This document shows, in pieces, positions 30,249-36,772 of a DNA stretch of 39,475 bases. The stretch covers positions 1-39,475 of the forward strand of contig CALVAJ010000022.1 of NCBI GenBank assembly GCA_944325505.1, read 5' to 3'. The notes beneath the pieces are model-generated. The model made no database searches. It had not been told where the DNA came from and saw nothing but the letters and a program-made list of their open reading frames with translations. The position numbers and the translations under genes are program-made. Source of the stretch: an uncultured Bacteroidales bacterium (GTDB lineage: Bacteria; Bacteroidota; Bacteroidia; Bacteroidales; UBA932). Position 1 is the stretch's first letter; the number at the start of each line of letters is the position of its first letter.

Positions 30249-30320
30249 AAGAATAAGGGCTGAAGTTCAAGGCGTGCACAGCAAGCACAACGCAGAAATT
30301 CGGCCCTTATTCTTTTTTTT
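30249..30320. terminator. bidirectional terminator between S46 peptidase and carB
   Basis: A perfect 12-base stem, AAGAATAAGGGC (30249-30260) with GCCCTTATTCTT (30303-30314), has T-runs on both outer sides (T from 30313 on the plus strand, A-run 30241-30247 for the minus strand). It should end both convergent units. The unusually large 42-base loop contains a further weak hairpin (GCG-TGC with GCA-CGC). It touches the carB stop codon at 30319. Confidence 0.75.
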
Positions 30321-33300
30321 AATACTGGTCCCAGGACTTAATCTGAATATCATCCTGCCCCATCTCGCAGAACGCCCTGATAAACGCGGTCGCAAGGCGT
30401 GCATTGGTAATCAGCGGGATGTTGAAGTCGATTGCCGCACGGCGGATTTTGTAACCGTTGTCCATCTCGAGAGTACTGTAGTTCTTAGGGATATTGACAA
30501 CAAGGTCTATTTTCTTGTCCTGCAGCATTTTCAGAGCAGATTCAAACTCAGCGGCAAGTACCGGGTCTTCGCTCTCGCTCGGCCAGAGGACCCGAGTGGC
30601 AGGAACATCGTTCTCCACCAGATATTTATAGGAACCTCCCGTAGCATAAAGAGTATAACCGTGGTCGGCAAGCAGTCTGCAGGCTCCGAAAAGGTCGGCT
30701 TTCTGCAGAGCGTCGCCGGAAGAAATCAGGATGTTCTTTGACGGGATCTTGTAGCCTACCGACAACACCGATTTCAGAAGAGCCTCGTTGAAATCATCTC
30801 CGATACATCCTACTTCACCTGTAGAAGCCATATCGACTCCGAGGACAGGGTCGGCCTGCTGCAGTCTGGAGAACGAGAACTGTGAAGCCTTGATCCCCAC
30901 ATAGTCAAGGTCGAACGCGCTCTTGTGAGGCGGCATCGGTTTCTTGCCGAGCATAACCTTGGTAGCGAGTTCTATAAGGTTGATTTTAAGAACCTTGGAA
31001 ACGAAAGGAAAACTCCGTGACGCCCTCAGGTTACACTCTATGACCTTGATGGCGTTTTCCTTGGCGAGGAACTGGATATTGAAAGGCCCTGAAATCTCCA
31101 GAGCGGCCGCGATTTTCTTCGCGATTTTCTTGATACGGCGGACGGTCTCGATATAAAGTTTCTGCGGAGGGAACTGGATGGTAGCGTCTCCCGAATGGAC
31201 TCCGGCAAACTCGATATGCTCTGAAATGGCGTATGCGATGACTTCTCCTGCATCAGCCACAGCATCGAACTCGATTTCCTTGCACCTCTGCATGAACTGG
31301 CTGATGACGACAGGATGCTTCTTGGAGACTTCAGCCGCCATTGAAAGGAAGCGCTTGAGTTCGTCTTCGTTGTAGCATACGTTCATCGCGGCGCCTGAAA
31401 GCACGTATGACGGTCTTACCAGCACAGGGAAACCTACCTGTGAAACAAATGCGTTCACATCATCCAGCGTGGTGAGTTCCTTCCACTTAGGCTGGTCTAT
31501 CCCCAGAGCGTCTACGATAGACGAGAACTTGTGCCTGTCCTCAGCCTTGTCTATGCTGGAAGCCTTGGTCCCTAGGATATTGACTCCGCTCTGGTCAAGC
31601 CTGAGGGCAAGGTTGTTCGGAATCTGTCCTCCCACTGAAACCACCATTCCGTGCGGCTGCTCCAGTTCATAGATATCCATCACCCTCTCGTATGTAAGCT
31701 CATCAAAATAGAGCCTGTCGCACATGTCGTAGTCAGTGGATACCGTCTCCGGATTGTAATTGATCATTACACCCCTGTAGCCTTCTTTCTTGATGGTATT
31801 CAAGGCATTGACCGAACACCAGTCGAACTCAACGGAACTTCCGATCCTGTACGCTCCTGATCCGAGGACGATTACCGAGCGGTGGTCGTGCAGGTACCTG
31901 ACATCATTGTAGCTGCCGTTATATGTAAGGTAAAGATAGTTTGTCTGCGCCGGGAATTCAGCCGCGAGGGTATCTATCTGTTTTACGCACGGCACGATAC
32001 CGTGTGACTTTCTGAATGCACGGACGATATTCTGGGCGTCTTCGCTGTCAATCTTGTCCTTGTATATGGCCCTTGCTATCTGGAAATCGGAGAATCCCTG
32101 CTGCTTGGCCAGACGGAGAAGTCCGGCCGGCATCGCCTCGCAGTTGTCATAAGTCTGCATTTCGTGATAAGTCCGCACTATCCCGGCAAGCTTATGCAGG
32201 AACCATTTGTCTATCTTGGTCAGATCGTGTATCTGGTCAACGGTGTATCCTGCCCTCATTGCCTTGGATATCACGAATATGCGCCTGTCGGTAGGTTCGC
32301 GCAGAGCCTCATCCACATCAGCGACCTTCAGTTCCTTGTTACCGACGAACCCGTGGGCGCCCTGACCTATCATCCTGAGACCTTTCTGTATAGCCTCTTC
32401 AAAGCTGCGGCCTATGGCCATCACTTCTCCGACACTCTTCATGCTGGACCCGATCTTGCGGGAAACACCGTGGAATTTGGAAAGATCCCAGCGAGGTATC
32501 TTGCAGACAATGTAGTCAAGCGCAGGCTCGAAGAAAGCAGGAGTCACCTTCGTGACGGAGTTCTTCAGATCAAACAGCCCGTATCCCAACCCGAGTTTGG
32601 CCGCCACAAAAGCCAGAGGATAACCTGTCGCCTTTGACGCAAGAGCGGAAGAACGGCTCAGACGCGCATTCACTTCGATTACCCTGTAATCCATAGCATC
32701 AGGGTTGAAAGCATACTGGACATTGCACTCTCCGACGATACCTATATGACGCACGATCTTTATGGAAAGCTCGCGGAGATAATGATATTCTTCGTTTGTA
32801 AGCGTCTGGGACGGTGCCACTACGATACTTTCGCCTGTATGGATTCCCAGAGGGTCGAAGTTCTCCATGTTGCAGACCGTGATACAGTTGTCATATCGGT
32901 CGCGGACAACCTCGTATTCGATCTCTTTCCAGCCCTTGAGCGACTTCTCGACAAGCACCTGCGGAGAGAACGAGAAAGCCTTTTCACAAATCTCTTCCAG
33001 TTCCTGCTCGTTGTCGCAGAACCCTGAACCGAGTCCTCCCAGCGCGTATGCTGCGCGGATTATCACAGGATAACCGAGTTCCAGGGCAGCAGCACGTGCC
33101 TGCTCCATATTCTCGGCAGCATGGGACTTGATGGTCTTGACATCGATCTGGTCCAGCTTCTCCACGAAAAGTTCACGGTCTTCCGTATCTATAATCGCCT
33201 GCACAGGCGTACCGAGTACCTTGACTCCGTATTTTTCAAGTATTCCGCTCTTGTAAAGCTCCACTCCGCAATTCAGCGCAGTCTGGCCACCGAATGCCAG

Positions 33301-33558
33301 CAGAATCCCTTGCGGTGCCTCCTTCTTGATGACTTTCTCGACAAAGAACGGCGTCACAGGAAGGAAATATATCTTGTCGGCGACCCCTTCGGAAGTCTGG
33401 ACAGTAGCGATGTTAGGGTTGATCAGGACTGTCTCGATGCCTTCTTCTTTCAGAGCCTTCAAAGCCTGTGAACCGGAATAGTCAAACTCACCAGCCTCCC
33501 CGATTTTCAGCGCACCCGAACCGAGGATTACGACTTTCTTTATATTGTTGTCAATCAT
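30319..33558 (-). CDS. carB: carbamoyl-phosphate synthase large subunit
   Basis: The 1079-residue subunit makes carbamoyl phosphate from ammonia (delivered by CarA), bicarbonate and two ATP, for arginine and pyrimidine synthesis. Both homologous ATP-grasp halves are complete. The first starts KKVVILGSGALKIGEAGEFDYSG, the second VIVLGSGAYRIGSSVEFDWCS. Each has its own ATP-binding elements, such as PVIIRAAYALGGLGSG and PVLVRPSYVLSGAAMNV. The C-terminal allosteric MGS-like domain (from about residue 935, KNILISSGDALQKADL...YATGGSYKYL) is also present, so UMP or ornithine control is possible. It starts 12 bases after carA and ends at the bidirectional terminator. Confidence 0.97.
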   Translation of the reverse strand: MIDNNIKKVVILGSGALKIGEAGEFDYSGSQALKALKEEGIETVLINPNIATVQTSEGVADKIYFLPVTPFFVEKVIKKEAPQGILLAFGGQTALNCGVELYKSGILEKYGVKVLGTPVQAIIDTEDRELFVEKLDQIDVKTIKSHAAENMEQARAAALELGYPVIIRAAYALGGLGSGFCDNEQELEEICEKAFSFSPQVLVEKSLKGWKEIEYEVVRDRYDNCITVCNMENFDPLGIHTGESIVVAPSQTLTNEEYHYLRELSIKIVRHIGIVGECNVQYAFNPDAMDYRVIEVNARLSRSSALASKATGYPLAFVAAKLGLGYGLFDLKNSVTKVTPAFFEPALDYIVCKIPRWDLSKFHGVSRKIGSSMKSVGEVMAIGRSFEEAIQKGLRMIGQGAHGFVGNKELKVADVDEALREPTDRRIFVISKAMRAGYTVDQIHDLTKIDKWFLHKLAGIVRTYHEMQTYDNCEAMPAGLLRLAKQQGFSDFQIARAIYKDKIDSEDAQNIVRAFRKSHGIVPCVKQIDTLAAEFPAQTNYLYLTYNGSYNDVRYLHDHRSVIVLGSGAYRIGSSVEFDWCSVNALNTIKKEGYRGVMINYNPETVSTDYDMCDRLYFDELTYERVMDIYELEQPHGMVVSVGGQIPNNLALRLDQSGVNILGTKASSIDKAEDRHKFSSIVDALGIDQPKWKELTTLDDVNAFVSQVGFPVLVRPSYVLSGAAMNVCYNEDELKRFLSMAAEVSKKHPVVISQFMQRCKEIEFDAVADAGEVIAYAISEHIEFAGVHSGDATIQFPPQKLYIETVRRIKKIAKKIAAALEISGPFNIQFLAKENAIKVIECNLRASRSFPFVSKVLKINLIELATKVMLGKKPMPPHKSAFDLDYVGIKASQFSFSRLQQADPVLGVDMASTGEVGCIGDDFNEALLKSVLSVGYKIPSKNILISSGDALQKADLFGACRLLADHGYTLYATGGSYKYLVENDVPATRVLWPSESEDPVLAAEFESALKMLQDKKIDLVVNIPKNYSTLEMDNGYKIRRAAIDFNIPLITNARLATAFIRAFCEMGQDDIQIKSWDQY

Positions 33559-33570
33559 TGTCTTTCAGAT

Positions 33571-34647
33571 TTAAAGTTTGGATATGAATTCATCGAAAAG
33601 GAACTCCGTGTCTGTAGGACCGCTGGTAGCCTCAGGATGGAACTGGGCGGAAAAGAAAGGTTTTGTCTTGTGGCGGATGCCTTCATTGGTCCCGTCGTTC
33701 ATGTTTATGAAAAGCGGCTCCCAGTCTGACCCCAATGTGCTGTTGTCCACGGCGAAACCGTGATTCTGGGAAGTGACGAAACATCTGTTCGTGCCGACCA
33801 TGCGCACAGGCTGGTTGTGGCTGCGGTGCCCGTATTTGAGCTTGTAAGTGGACGCTCCGCCTGCAGTGGACAGAAGCTGGTTGCCCATGCATATACCGAA
33901 AACCGGCTTGTCTTTCTTAAGGGCCTCCCTTATATGGTCGACGGTCACTGTACAGAGGGCAGGGTTTCCGGGGCCGTTGGAAATGAACAGCCCGTCATAG
34001 TCCAATGTATTGAAATCGTAGTCCCACGGAACGCGGATGACCTCGACTCCCCTGCGGATGAAACAGCGGATGATGTTGTTTTTCACCCCGCAGTCCACAA
34101 GGACCACTTTCTTGTCCCCTTTTCCATAACGGACCACTTCCTTGCAGCTGACTATCGCCACCTGGTTTACAGTATTCGGGTCCTCGATCGGGAAATCCCT
34201 CGTGACCCCGTCCGGAACTATGATTCCGAGCATCGAGCCATGCTCTCTCAGGACTTTTGTAAGCTCCCTGGTGTCAATTCCGTAAATACCAGGTATCTGC
34301 TGGGACTTCAACCATTCGTCAAGGCTCCTGGCAGCTTTCCAGTGGCTGTATTCAAACGAATAGTCGGAGATTACAAGACCTCTGACATGAATCCTGTCAG
34401 ATTCGAAATTCCTGGATATCCCCCACTCGTCCACGCCATCTGCAGGGACGCCGTAATTACCTATAAGAGGATAAGTTATACAAAGAATCTGTCCTGAATA
34501 GGATGGGTCTGTCAAACTCTCCGGATAACCTACCATGGCAGTGGAGAAAACCACTTCCCCGTCGCATGGCCCGTCATACCCGAAAGAGTATCCCCTGAAC
34601 TCCATTCCGTTCTCAAGTCTGAGTGTAGCACCGAGTCTCTTGTCCAT
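33571..34647 (-). CDS. carA: carbamoyl-phosphate synthase small subunit
   Basis: The 358-residue glutaminase subunit releases ammonia from glutamine for CarB. The N-terminal CPSase small-chain domain has the GYPESLTDPSYSGQILCITYPLIGNYG block. The C-terminal class I glutamine amidotransferase domain has Cys253 (in GICMGNQ) as nucleophile and His337/Glu339 (FHPE). The frame could begin at TTG 34671, but ATG 34647 (MDKRLGATLRLENG) is preferred because homology begins there and the TTG lies inside the leader ORF. The gene is preceded by a leader with a terminator and a small ORF, so it is probably controlled by attenuation. Confidence 0.95.
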   Translation of the reverse strand: MDKRLGATLRLENGMEFRGYSFGYDGPCDGEVVFSTAMVGYPESLTDPSYSGQILCITYPLIGNYGVPADGVDEWGISRNFESDRIHVRGLVISDYSFEYSHWKAARSLDEWLKSQQIPGIYGIDTRELTKVLREHGSMLGIIVPDGVTRDFPIEDPNTVNQVAIVSCKEVVRYGKGDKKVVLVDCGVKNNIIRCFIRRGVEVIRVPWDYDFNTLDYDGLFISNGPGNPALCTVTVDHIREALKKDKPVFGICMGNQLLSTAGGASTYKLKYGHRSHNQPVRMVGTNRCFVTSQNHGFAVDNSTLGSDWEPLFINMNDGTNEGIRHKTKPFFSAQFHPEATSGPTDTEFLFDEFISKL

Positions 34648-34660
34648 TGTCCTTATACTG

Positions 34661-34729
34661 TTAATATTCAATTAGTACATATAAAAAAAAACGACCATCC
34701 CGAGAAGGAACGGTCGTCTCTCTTTCCAT
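34661..34729 (-). CDS. putative carAB leader peptide
   Basis: This 22-codon ORF starts MERETTVPSRDGRFF and ends LIEY. It spans the whole intrinsic terminator of the carAB leader and stops 13 bases before the carA ATG. It contains Arg codons at positions 3, 10 and 13 (AGA, CGG, CGT), the latter two in the loop-side and 3' arm of the hairpin. Overlap of a short ORF with a terminator is the arrangement of translation-coupled attenuators such as E. coli pyrBI. Translation is unproven. Confidence 0.5.
   Translation of the reverse strand: MERETTVPSRDGRFFLYVLIEY
34683..34717 (-). terminator. leader terminator (attenuator) of carAB
   Basis: The minus strand forms an 11-pair stem (ACGACCGTTCC with GGGATGGTCGT, two wobble pairs) with a 5-base loop, TTCTC, followed by nine T. 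It lies about 60-90 bases after the predicted carAB start site and before the carA gene, so it must be overcome for expression. It may also end read-through from the TonB receptor gene. Confidence 0.8.
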
Positions 34730-34781
34730 TATATTATTTGCTGGATTTTCTGCATTACAAAGTGTTCAACATTTCAAGGTG

Positions 34782-34814
34782 CAAAGATAGGAAAAAACAT
34801 TACATTTCTGCAAA
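34782..34814 (-). promoter_or_regulatory. carAB promoter
   Basis: On the minus strand TTTG (34811-34814) and TATCTTTG (34782-34789) are 21 bases apart. It lies right after the TonB receptor stop, so carAB has its own transcript, with a leader of about 128 bases. Confidence 0.65.
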
Positions 34815-34819
34815 ATATT

Positions 34820-36772
34820 TTACAGACTGATATGGAAGCCGGCGATGACTGTCGCCTTAGGCATAGGATAGCCGGCATTGATTTCATACTCCTGAGCAAG
34901 AAGGTTTTCTCCACGGGCCCAGACACTGAGCCAGCCGGTGATCCTGAATGAAGCGAACAGGTTCCAGAGAATGAAATTTTCCTGGAGATTCATTCCATTT
35001 CCGTTTGTAACTACCTGTGTATAAAGGCCGTTAACATACTGCAGACCTGTCGACACCTTCCAGCGCCCTTTAGTGAAAGAGCCTCCGGCATAAAGTTTAT
35101 GTTCCGGTGCACCGATAACAGGATATTTCATATGGAGAAAACTGTAATTGGCATCGACCGACCATGTCCGGTTTATACGCCATGCCGCCTGCGCTTCCAG
35201 CCCTGCATTTCTAATGGCCCCTGTATTCATATTCAGCGGTGTCGTACCTTGCCTCGGTACTGCAACGATCATGTTTCTTCCATTTATATAGAACACGTTC
35301 ACTCCATAAGACAGCCTGCCTTCGAGCAGTGTCTGGGAAAAAGCCAGTTCGTAATTCCACATGCTTTCCGGCTCAAGATCCGGATTCTGCGGAGGAAACA
35401 TGTACATTTCTCTGATCGTAGGGTAACGGAATCCTTTGCTCGTTGAAGCCTTGAGTTCCATGGAATGAGGAAGATGAAAGGACATTCCGGCCTGCGGTAT
35501 CCACTCTGTGCCGACACGGGAATAGTAGTCCGCCCTCACCCCGACATCGAACGTAAGCCATGAACCGATGTCCTGTCTGAAATCAATGTAACCGGCAACT
35601 TCATGCTCTCTCTTGTCCGCAATCTCTGATATATTCCCTTTCTTTTCTCCCTCAATATAATTGTTCCAGGCGCGGCCTCCGAAACGGAACCAGTCAAAAC
35701 CCGCCGTCAGACGGTTTCCTTTGAACAGTCTAGCACTCTGATAGATAGAGATTCCCATCATGTCATCGCGGGAGTTAAAGCGGTAATCAAGCGGAGCCTC
35801 CCCTTTCCCGGGCTCATAACCGTCATTTATCCAATGGTTTCCCCAATTATAGAAGAAACTCACCGCTCCGGATGTCTTTTCATAACTGTTCTCTATGGCC
35901 AACGATGTCATTCCCCTGGTAACCCTCTGGTCGGCATCAAGCAAAAGGGCGGATACCGGACCTGGCTGGGAAGCATTGAAATGAGTTAAGTTCGCATCAG
36001 CTCTTATTTTCCATTCGTCAGTCACATCATACCCTATCTTGGCATAACCGCCGTACTGCTCAAAGCCCATATCGGTTCTATGACCGTCTGTTCTGTTGTA
36101 TGACAGGCTCGCTACACTAGAGAAACGTCCCTTCCTTATACGGTTTGTCACATCAGTCTGGAGAGTATTGTAAGAGCCATAGCCGGCATTGAGATCGGTC
36201 CTGACCCCGTCTTCGGACATCTGTCTGGTGACAATATTTATCACACCTCCCATGGCATTGGAACCGTAAAGCATGGACGCAGGCCCTCTCAGGACCTCAA
36301 CACGCTCGGCAATAAAGGACTGATACGCATCAGCTATCGGATGGCTGAACATGCCCATATACTGAGGATGCCCGTCAATCAGCACCATAAGACGCCCGGA
36401 ACCCCCGCTGAGACCGCGCAGGGACATACCTCCGGCTGCACCGTCCGAGACACCATAACCCATTATCCCCCTTGATGTTATAAAAAGCCCCGGAATCTGC
36501 TCTGTCAAGACCGGAAGCAATGACGGCTGGTTTGTCTGGCCTATCCTGCTCCGGTCAATTACTGATACAGTCTGGGACAGATGCCTGATATCTGTCCTGC
36601 TACGGGTTCCGGTTACCACCACTTCACTGATTTCGCCATTCCAGACCGCTCTGGCAGTATCTGCTGCAACATCAAGCCTATCCTGTTCTATAGAATGGTT
36701 TTCTTCTGACCAGGCAGCAACAGGTACCAAGGCCAATACGGCCAGACTGACAATTTTTCTCATAAGATTCAT
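34820..36772 (-). CDS. TonB-dependent outer-membrane receptor
   Basis: This 650-residue active-transport barrel is energised by TonB. It has a signal peptide (about 22 residues, VAAWSEE), a TonB box-like EISEVVVTGTRS (residues 48-58), a plug domain (LLPVLTEQIPGLFITSRG, SLRGLSGGSGRLMVLIDGHP, ERVEVLRGPASMLYGSNAMGGVINIVT) and a 22-strand barrel ending in a terminal strand VIAGFHISL. MYMFPPQNPDLEPE is the usual barrel motif. There is no carboxypeptidase-like N-terminal extension and no SusD partner, so a metal chelate or vitamin B12-type substrate (BtuB/CirA-like) is more likely than a glycan. An in-frame ATG at 36763 (MRKIV) is an alternative start. The mRNA leader has a terminator-like hairpin. 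Confidence 0.92.
   Translation of the reverse strand: MNLMRKIVSLAVLALVPVAAWSEENHSIEQDRLDVAADTARAVWNGEISEVVVTGTRSRTDIRHLSQTVSVIDRSRIGQTNQPSLLPVLTEQIPGLFITSRGIMGYGVSDGAAGGMSLRGLSGGSGRLMVLIDGHPQYMGMFSHPIADAYQSFIAERVEVLRGPASMLYGSNAMGGVINIVTRQMSEDGVRTDLNAGYGSYNTLQTDVTNRIRKGRFSSVASLSYNRTDGHRTDMGFEQYGGYAKIGYDVTDEWKIRADANLTHFNASQPGPVSALLLDADQRVTRGMTSLAIENSYEKTSGAVSFFYNWGNHWINDGYEPGKGEAPLDYRFNSRDDMMGISIYQSARLFKGNRLTAGFDWFRFGGRAWNNYIEGEKKGNISEIADKREHEVAGYIDFRQDIGSWLTFDVGVRADYYSRVGTEWIPQAGMSFHLPHSMELKASTSKGFRYPTIREMYMFPPQNPDLEPESMWNYELAFSQTLLEGRLSYGVNVFYINGRNMIVAVPRQGTTPLNMNTGAIRNAGLEAQAAWRINRTWSVDANYSFLHMKYPVIGAPEHKLYAGGSFTKGRWKVSTGLQYVNGLYTQVVTNGNGMNLQENFILWNLFASFRITGWLSVWARGENLLAQEYEINAGYPMPKATVIAGFHISL

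Follow-up and report, generated by a model that had tools for sequence, protein, structure and literature searches.

The carAB operon makes carbamoyl phosphate, which is used for both arginine and pyrimidines. Leader-mediated control is known from several neighbouring systems: the pyrBI attenuator contains a U-rich pause stretch, the pyr genes of Firmicutes are under PyrR-controlled transcription attenuation, and the Bacteroid-trp leader carries Trp codons. In Escherichia coli, a stop codon placed 5 bp before a terminator cuts termination from about 90% to under 10%, and, where no pause sites assist, a ribosome has little chance of reaching the polymerase over the first 100 bp of a coding region (PMC4824070). 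Amino-acid attenuators have their terminators at a distance of more than 20 bp from the leader gene, and the pyrBI terminator lies inside it (PMC4824070). The carAB operon of Pseudomonas aeruginosa has a leader peptide and a stem-loop before carA, and when the stem-loop is deleted the operon no longer responds to pyrimidines but still responds to arginine (summarised in PMC4997734). Within the Bacteroidota, strong clues of leader-peptide attenuation were described upstream of amino-acid biosynthesis operons in Flavobacterium psychrophilum (PMC9723704), and the Bacteroid-trp RNA (RF01692) is listed as cis-regulatory in Bacteroidetes (PMC2864571).

Here we analyzed the carAB leader in a stretch of 39,475 nucleotides (the window) from an uncultured Bacteroidales bacterium whose genome is assigned to Candidatus Cryptobacteroides, together with the carA upstream regions of its relatives. 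As in the pyrBI type of attenuator, a predicted intrinsic terminator sits between the promoter and the first gene, carA.

Features of the window

The features of the locus are given below in the order of transcription, each with its basis.

34782–34814, minus strand: promoter of Bacteroidota type, TTTG at 34814–34811, a 21-nt spacer and TATCTTTG at 34789–34782 (sequence)
34755–34772, minus strand: ORF1, MLNTL*, overlapping ORF2 as TAATG
34729–34755, minus strand: ORF2, MQKIQQII*, leader ORF conserved in the window clade
34661–34729, minus strand: ORF3, MERETTVPSRDGRFFLYVLIEY*, the 22-codon ORF of the initial annotation, reading through P3
34692–34716, minus strand: P3, predicted terminator hairpin with core CGACCGTTCC-TTCTC-GGGATGGTCG (fold and recurrence in relatives)
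34683–34691, minus strand: U-run of P3, nine T (sequence; the 11th hairpin pair uses the first of these T)
33571–34647, minus strand: carA, carbamoyl-phosphate synthetase small subunit (ORF and homologue searches)
30319–33558, minus strand: presumably carB, carbamoyl-phosphate synthetase large subunit, 12 nt behind carA (ORF)

The name carA is that of the initial annotation and our own, and the ORF at 30319–33558 is one which we take to be carB. The promoter, the hairpin with nine T, the 22-codon ORF and its three arginine codons (positions 3, 10 and 13), which that annotation had described before carA, were all found in place on the minus strand; ORF1 and ORF2 had been left out of its account. 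TAnnTTTG is the sigma-A consensus, with the box at −12 to −5 (PMC9723704), and the transcription start of the window leader probably lies near 34777. The leader folds better than its shuffles (z −2.96), with 1 of 200 shuffles at least as good. P3 was absent from the output of a simple terminator scan of the window, in our reading since the U-run is taken up by pairing with A/G bases on the 5′ side of the stem. At gathering score, Rfam gave only a tRNA at 761–831 in the whole window and nothing in the carA leader.

Upstream of the locus lies a co-directional ORF (34820–36772) that resembles a TonB-dependent receptor by eye and stops 5 nt short of the carA promoter. Among named records the closest is Candidatus Cryptobacteroides avicola (locus L031), whose CarA is 100% identical to that of the window; its sequence is near-identical to the window downstream of the carA promoter and different upstream of it.

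Distribution of the leader in relatives

CarA matches at E 1e-100 or better were found in 222 of 400 genomes of a genus sample and in 296 of 398 genomes of a family sample. The gene is patchy in the genus, as such a match is present in 106 of the 150 genomes having at least 90% completeness and at most 5% contamination. Upstream regions were taken from 100 genus loci (the closest carA matches plus four from the family search, and not a random draw) and 20 loci of other family genera, beside 80 homologue loci. G397, whose match begins at base 56, was left out, and 171 of the 201 regions were unique. The hairpin score was passed by 54 regions, six of which (L064, L097, L109, L144, L177 and L190) were dropped for having no promoter match at the required distance, although L190 does have a P3-type hairpin. 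Nine leaders with weaker stems (L035, L037, L050, L134, L135, L184, L195, L200 and L218) were added by hand for their hairpin, and there may be more of this kind; for L063 and L170 the P3-type hairpin was taken in place of the one first selected.

This curation gave at least 57 terminator-bearing carA leaders in 21 sequence clusters. A curated leader hairpin is present at no fewer than 55 of the 100 genus loci, against none of the 20 loci of other family genera; 45 genus loci and all 20 others are without a curated leader of this kind. On these upstream regions the putative coupled carAB attenuator is lineage-restricted.

The P3-like hairpin with its U-run was found again before carA in relatives. 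Its arms are mostly CGRCCRTTYC and GRGATGGTCG or close variants, though the clusters differ elsewhere; cluster L199 carries another hairpin. A strict P3 pattern gave four matches in 61 genomes, every one before carA, a result on specificity and not on sensitivity, as the pattern misses true variants (e.g. G002 = L214 and G016 = L203). The sequence of P3 is also similar from cluster to cluster. Within families A and B its G-U pairs do not vary, and in neither of these two families is any of its pairs changed on both sides. Simple stem selection would allow more change in P3 than is seen.

A search of the window's genome for further copies of the leader gave nine other matches, the best with E 0.147. 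A leader shared with pyrB was rejected, as none comparable was seen by eye at 31 loci (400 nt upstream in the window's genome and 170 nt upstream in 30 of the 40 loci found).

Other designs were observed before carA. The Bacteroidales loci L023, L027, L087 and L106 (Barnesiella, Coprobacter and two others) share a carA 5′ UTR of another kind: its ACGATAGAA, close to where transcription presumably starts, is able to pair with TTCTATCGT at the start codon of carA, an arrangement that looks like sequestering of this codon; L019 and L104 have a similar design in other letters. In L040 and L041 a different terminator-like hairpin (GTCTGGTGGGGTGAGAGG...CATCCCATCAGAT plus a T-run) stands close behind the promoter, with no leader ORF seen by eye. 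The carA leaders of L086 and L103 have a terminator-like AAAAAGG.G..GCTGCTTTTTTT, preceded in L103 by a 13-codon ORF (by eye).

Position of the leader stop

The stop codons of the leader ORFs were compared with the base of the hairpin, taking one leader per cluster. An ATG ORF of at least 8 codons stopping within −17 to +23 nt of the hairpin base is present in 17 of 21 clusters (51 of 57 leaders), against 5.7 clusters (sd 1.8) in dinucleotide shuffles, none of 500 being as high; a stop within −12 to +2 is present in 13 of 21 against 2.8 (0 of 300 as high), both ranges having been chosen after viewing the data and applied equally to the shuffles. Randomly drawn cluster members again gave 17 and 13 of 21. 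There is no excess over shuffles in the 21 clusters at −40 to −18, −70 to −41 or +24 to +60. The leader ORFs of the cluster representatives have 8–34 codons, and the stops of the 17 qualifying representatives lie from −12 to +23. No ORF of this description is present in L051, L092, L133, L199, L200 and L210; in L051, L092 and L133 the ORF passes through P3, and L210 has a 6-codon ORF ending at −9.

In most clusters the leader ORF thus runs into the terminator or stops a few nt from it, as in pyrBI, with the window's own stop at −12; the spacing of more than 20 bp between leader stop and terminator, as in amino-acid attenuators, was not found. The leader anatomy is that of direct masking, because the stops lie close to P3 or inside it as in the E. 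coli masking and pyrBI cases (PMC4824070).

Elements of the long leaders

The 45 nt that precede P3 have a higher T content than the remaining leader sequence in 12 of 13 long-leader clusters (mean difference 0.10; 0 of 1000 shuffles as high), and in 9 of the 13 there are runs of at least four T (16 of 1000 shuffles as high). Pairing in a stem at the leader start region, P1, exceeds that of shuffles when 17 clusters are combined (Fisher p 0.0004). These 17 include short leaders, and the four of the 21 representatives that have no qualifying ORF are not among them; singly, p is below 0.05 in 6 clusters and not significant in the other 11. In the six singly significant clusters the 3′ strand of P1 begins 26–39 nt before P3. 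We know of no such start-region stem in pyrBI.

Families A and B have a further hairpin, P2, inside the leader ORF. In family B two pairs are changed on both sides in P1 and two in P2, and the covariation score reaches 0.200, where shuffles give 0.148 (0 of 500 as high) and sliding gives 0.080 at most, in an alignment without the two diverged cluster members L184 and L195; further pair types are no more numerous than in shuffles (277 of 500). Family A scores 0.110 against 0.080 in shuffles (1 of 500), with a maximum of 0.074 when slid, and only two of its pairs have a two-sided change, a slide by −2 giving three. Covariation of P1 and P2 is therefore seen in family B and weakly in family A.

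The ratio of amino-acid to silent changes in the first 20 codons of the family A leader ORF is 0.46 in its own frame and 0.79 and 1.13 in the others, which is a coding signal. For the 102-nt ORFs of family B it is 0.68 against 0.87 and 1.02, and for the 105-nt ORFs 0.86 against 0.73 and 0.72, so that the coding signal of this family is mixed. Candidates for an antiterminator pairing with the 5′ arm of P3, searched by eye in families A–C, were weak or unconserved.

The short leader of the window clade

The leader of the seven window-clade members is short and A-rich and is without P1 (p 0.89), P2 and the U-rich stretch, the T fraction in the last 40 nt before P3 being 0.15. The U-run has eight T in L031 and L120–L123 and seven in L131. 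In the window ORF2 ends 12 nt 5′ of the base of P3 and its stop overlaps the start of ORF3 (TAATG), so re-initiation at the ORF3 start is possible. Five of the seven members have an ATG or GTG at −13 that either overlaps the stop of the corresponding MQK ORF or follows it by a few bases. In L122, L123 and L131 the start of ORF1 continues in frame into the MQK ORF (MLNACKMQKFHQII, MLKPLEMQNIPQIR). The ORF3 start codon is ATG in two of the seven (the window and L031), GTG in three and not a start in two, and in L031, which has eight T rather than nine, the ORF3 equivalent ends after 18 codons. The 22-codon ORF of the window is hence not conserved.

In a tree built from 31 carA sequences, all seven members of the window clade stand together (support 0.999) and adjoin G237, a family A member (support 0.957), in whose leader (L133) the ORF runs beyond the usual stop; some deeper branches of family A are weakly supported (0.255 and 0.279). 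As the window leader lies among long-leader relatives on this tree, it is most simply a shortened form. P3 of the window begins about 61 nt from the presumed transcription start, with no pause site seen there, and full function of this leader is counted against by the 100-bp catch-up limit of E. coli. The switch of the window clade may be simplified or partly lost, with reduced regulation.

Proposed mechanism

Judged from their anatomy, we consider it fairly probable that these leaders are a carAB transcription-attenuation switch of the pyrBI kind, in which a ribosome at the leader stop masks P3; our confidence in masking is higher for the long leaders and lower for the window. The polymerase would start at the promoter and transcribe the short leader ORF and then P3 with its U-run. 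With no ribosome close behind, P3 would fold and transcription would end before carA, whereas a ribosome at the leader stop, which in most clusters is at most 12 nt from P3 or inside it, would cover the 5′ arm of P3 and carAB would be read. In the long leaders, when UTP is scarce, the polymerase would slow at P2 and the U-rich stretch and the ribosome could catch up; low pyrimidines would in this way turn carAB on. P1 would pair the leader start region with sequence that begins 26–39 nt before P3, and a late ribosome would no longer start. In the window clade P3 would be masked by a ribosome that translates MQKIQQII* and perhaps starts again at the AUG or GUG of ORF3, which overlaps the MQKIQQII* stop.

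Termination at P3 and masking by the ribosome are what we infer from this arrangement, and UTP is the presumed signal on three grounds: the pathway, the U-rich stretch, and how closely the leaders resemble those of pyrBI and of P. aeruginosa carAB. The UTP part is not readable from the window itself, since its clade lacks P1, P2 and the U-rich stretch. The translation-coupled carAB terminator which the initial annotation had put forward is supported by the ORFs ending at or just inside the terminator in 17 of the 21 clusters, leaving aside the role given there to arginine. Its second option, a ribosome close behind the polymerase at low UTP, fits the anatomy of the long leaders.

A more specific form of this mechanism is possible, although we lean towards doubting it: P1 may shut the start site once its 3′ partner is transcribed, and only a ribosome which loads during the U-rich slowdown would open carAB. 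If true, UTP would be sensed in Bacteroidota by the relative pace of the polymerase and the first ribosome, the leader peptide would be widely free between clades, and tight transcription-translation coupling in this phylum would be implied.

Trans-acting factors and alternative explanations

PyrR control was rejected, as PyrR was over the NF003549 cut-off in 0 of 20 genomes (weaker matches in 11 of 20) and in 6 of 14 controls. ArgR was found in 8 of 20 genus genomes, six of these having family B or C leaders; it was not found in the other 12, the window's included, nor in any searched genome of families W (the window clade), A and D. Known leader or riboswitch families were also rejected, since neither the window leader nor 20 leader loci reached the gathering score of any Rfam family, and there was no PyrR RNA match in the window or these loci; two weak matches far below gathering were seen among the 20 loci, overlapping the leaders, L131 with 29.6 bits (gathering 100, E 0.0017) and L122 with 25.3 bits (gathering 60, E 0.12).

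It is unlikely that a trans-acting protein or RNA binds the conserved P3 and controls termination, with the ORFs secondary. The P3 sequence, with its unvarying G-U pairs within families, was indeed kept while the rest of the leader diverged between clusters, but the placement of stops relative to P3 is far beyond chance, and the Rfam and PyrR searches above speak against such a factor. We regard as similarly unlikely a nascent leader peptide which acts as the sensor, where a metabolite (UTP, arginine or another) stalls the ribosome and the stall masks or frees P3. The core GSYxPLSAL of family A is kept through silent changes, as such a sensor would have it; however, by eye no motif is common to the leader peptides of the 21 clusters, and the cores that are conserved in families A and B overlap with P2. 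As this hairpin covaries in B and once in A, their conservation may be due in part to RNA structure. That P3 is an ordinary terminator of the upstream gene, or makes a small leader RNA, with carA not regulated, is quite improbable. The transcript of the window's upstream ORF would meet P3, and the nearest long upstream frame is co-directional in 5 of 16 P3-bearing loci, but it is opposite in 10 (L031, L033, L045–L050, L053 and L063; stop-to-stop frames, with L031 and L033 near ties) and was not found in one; moreover P3 lies downstream of the carA promoter, and this explanation leaves the ORF placement unaccounted for.

The initial annotation had proposed arginine as one possible signal; in such an attenuator the ribosome would slow at the arginine codons of the 22-codon ORF when charged Arg-tRNA is scarce and would block P3. 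Carbamoyl phosphate does feed arginine, the window's ORF does hold three arginine codons, and ArgR was not found in 12 of the 20 genomes. Even so, we judge this explanation very unlikely. Arginine accounts for 11 of 420 codons (2.6%) in the 17 cluster-representative leader peptides, with no adjacent pair, a count to which other members do not contribute (L184, frame-shifted relative to its family, is richer in arginine). The arginine-bearing ORF3 has its ATG in just two of the seven window-clade leaders, and the conserved ORF2 has no arginine codon in the window and one in L131. Arginine sensing was rejected on these codon counts and on the non-conservation of ORF3. Its arginine codons fall within the hairpin sequence or next to it and so do not count as evidence of their own. 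The leader stops are also nearer to the terminator than in amino-acid attenuators (PMC4824070).

Comparison with known systems

The four window-clade genomes searched (G000, G107, G419 and G426) have neither ArgR nor PyrR over the cut-offs, and control of the carAB branch point therefore lacks an explanation in this clade. If the leader works as proposed, it would offer a direct and clonable test of tight ribosome-polymerase coupling in Bacteroidota, and the long, short and absent leaders would be a natural series showing how such a switch may be lost.

The closest described system is the UTP-sensitive pyrL leader of E. coli pyrBI, which is alike in having a leader ORF that runs to or into the terminator and a place in the pyrimidine pathway, and in which a ribosome close behind the polymerase masks the hairpin directly with the help of pause sites, as it may do in the leaders described here (PMC4824070, PMC5021804, PMC4491880). 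The leaders described here differ from it in the operon (carAB), in the phylum (Bacteroidota), in the lengths of their ORFs and in a P3 that is similar across leaders which otherwise do not align. The carAB leader of P. aeruginosa is alike in its operon, leader peptide and stem-loop before carA, a likeness of description and not of sequence; that organism is a Gammaproteobacterium in which arginine acts at the transcriptional level (PMC4997734), whereas ArgR was not found in most of the genomes searched here. The leader-peptide attenuators suggested in Bacteroidota share the phylum but belong to amino-acid operons and not to carAB, and carA is nowhere named in PMC9723704. The PyrR attenuators of Firmicutes differ in their regulator, which was not over the cut-off in any of the 20 genomes, and in its RNA. 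No report of a carAB attenuator in Bacteroidota was found in searches of open-access literature, subscription papers being mostly outside this coverage. The kind of switch is already known from pyrBI and from carAB of P. aeruginosa; as far as these literature searches reach, what is new is its putative occurrence on carAB in this phylum, a stem at the leader start region, and a range of leaders that goes from long to short to absent.
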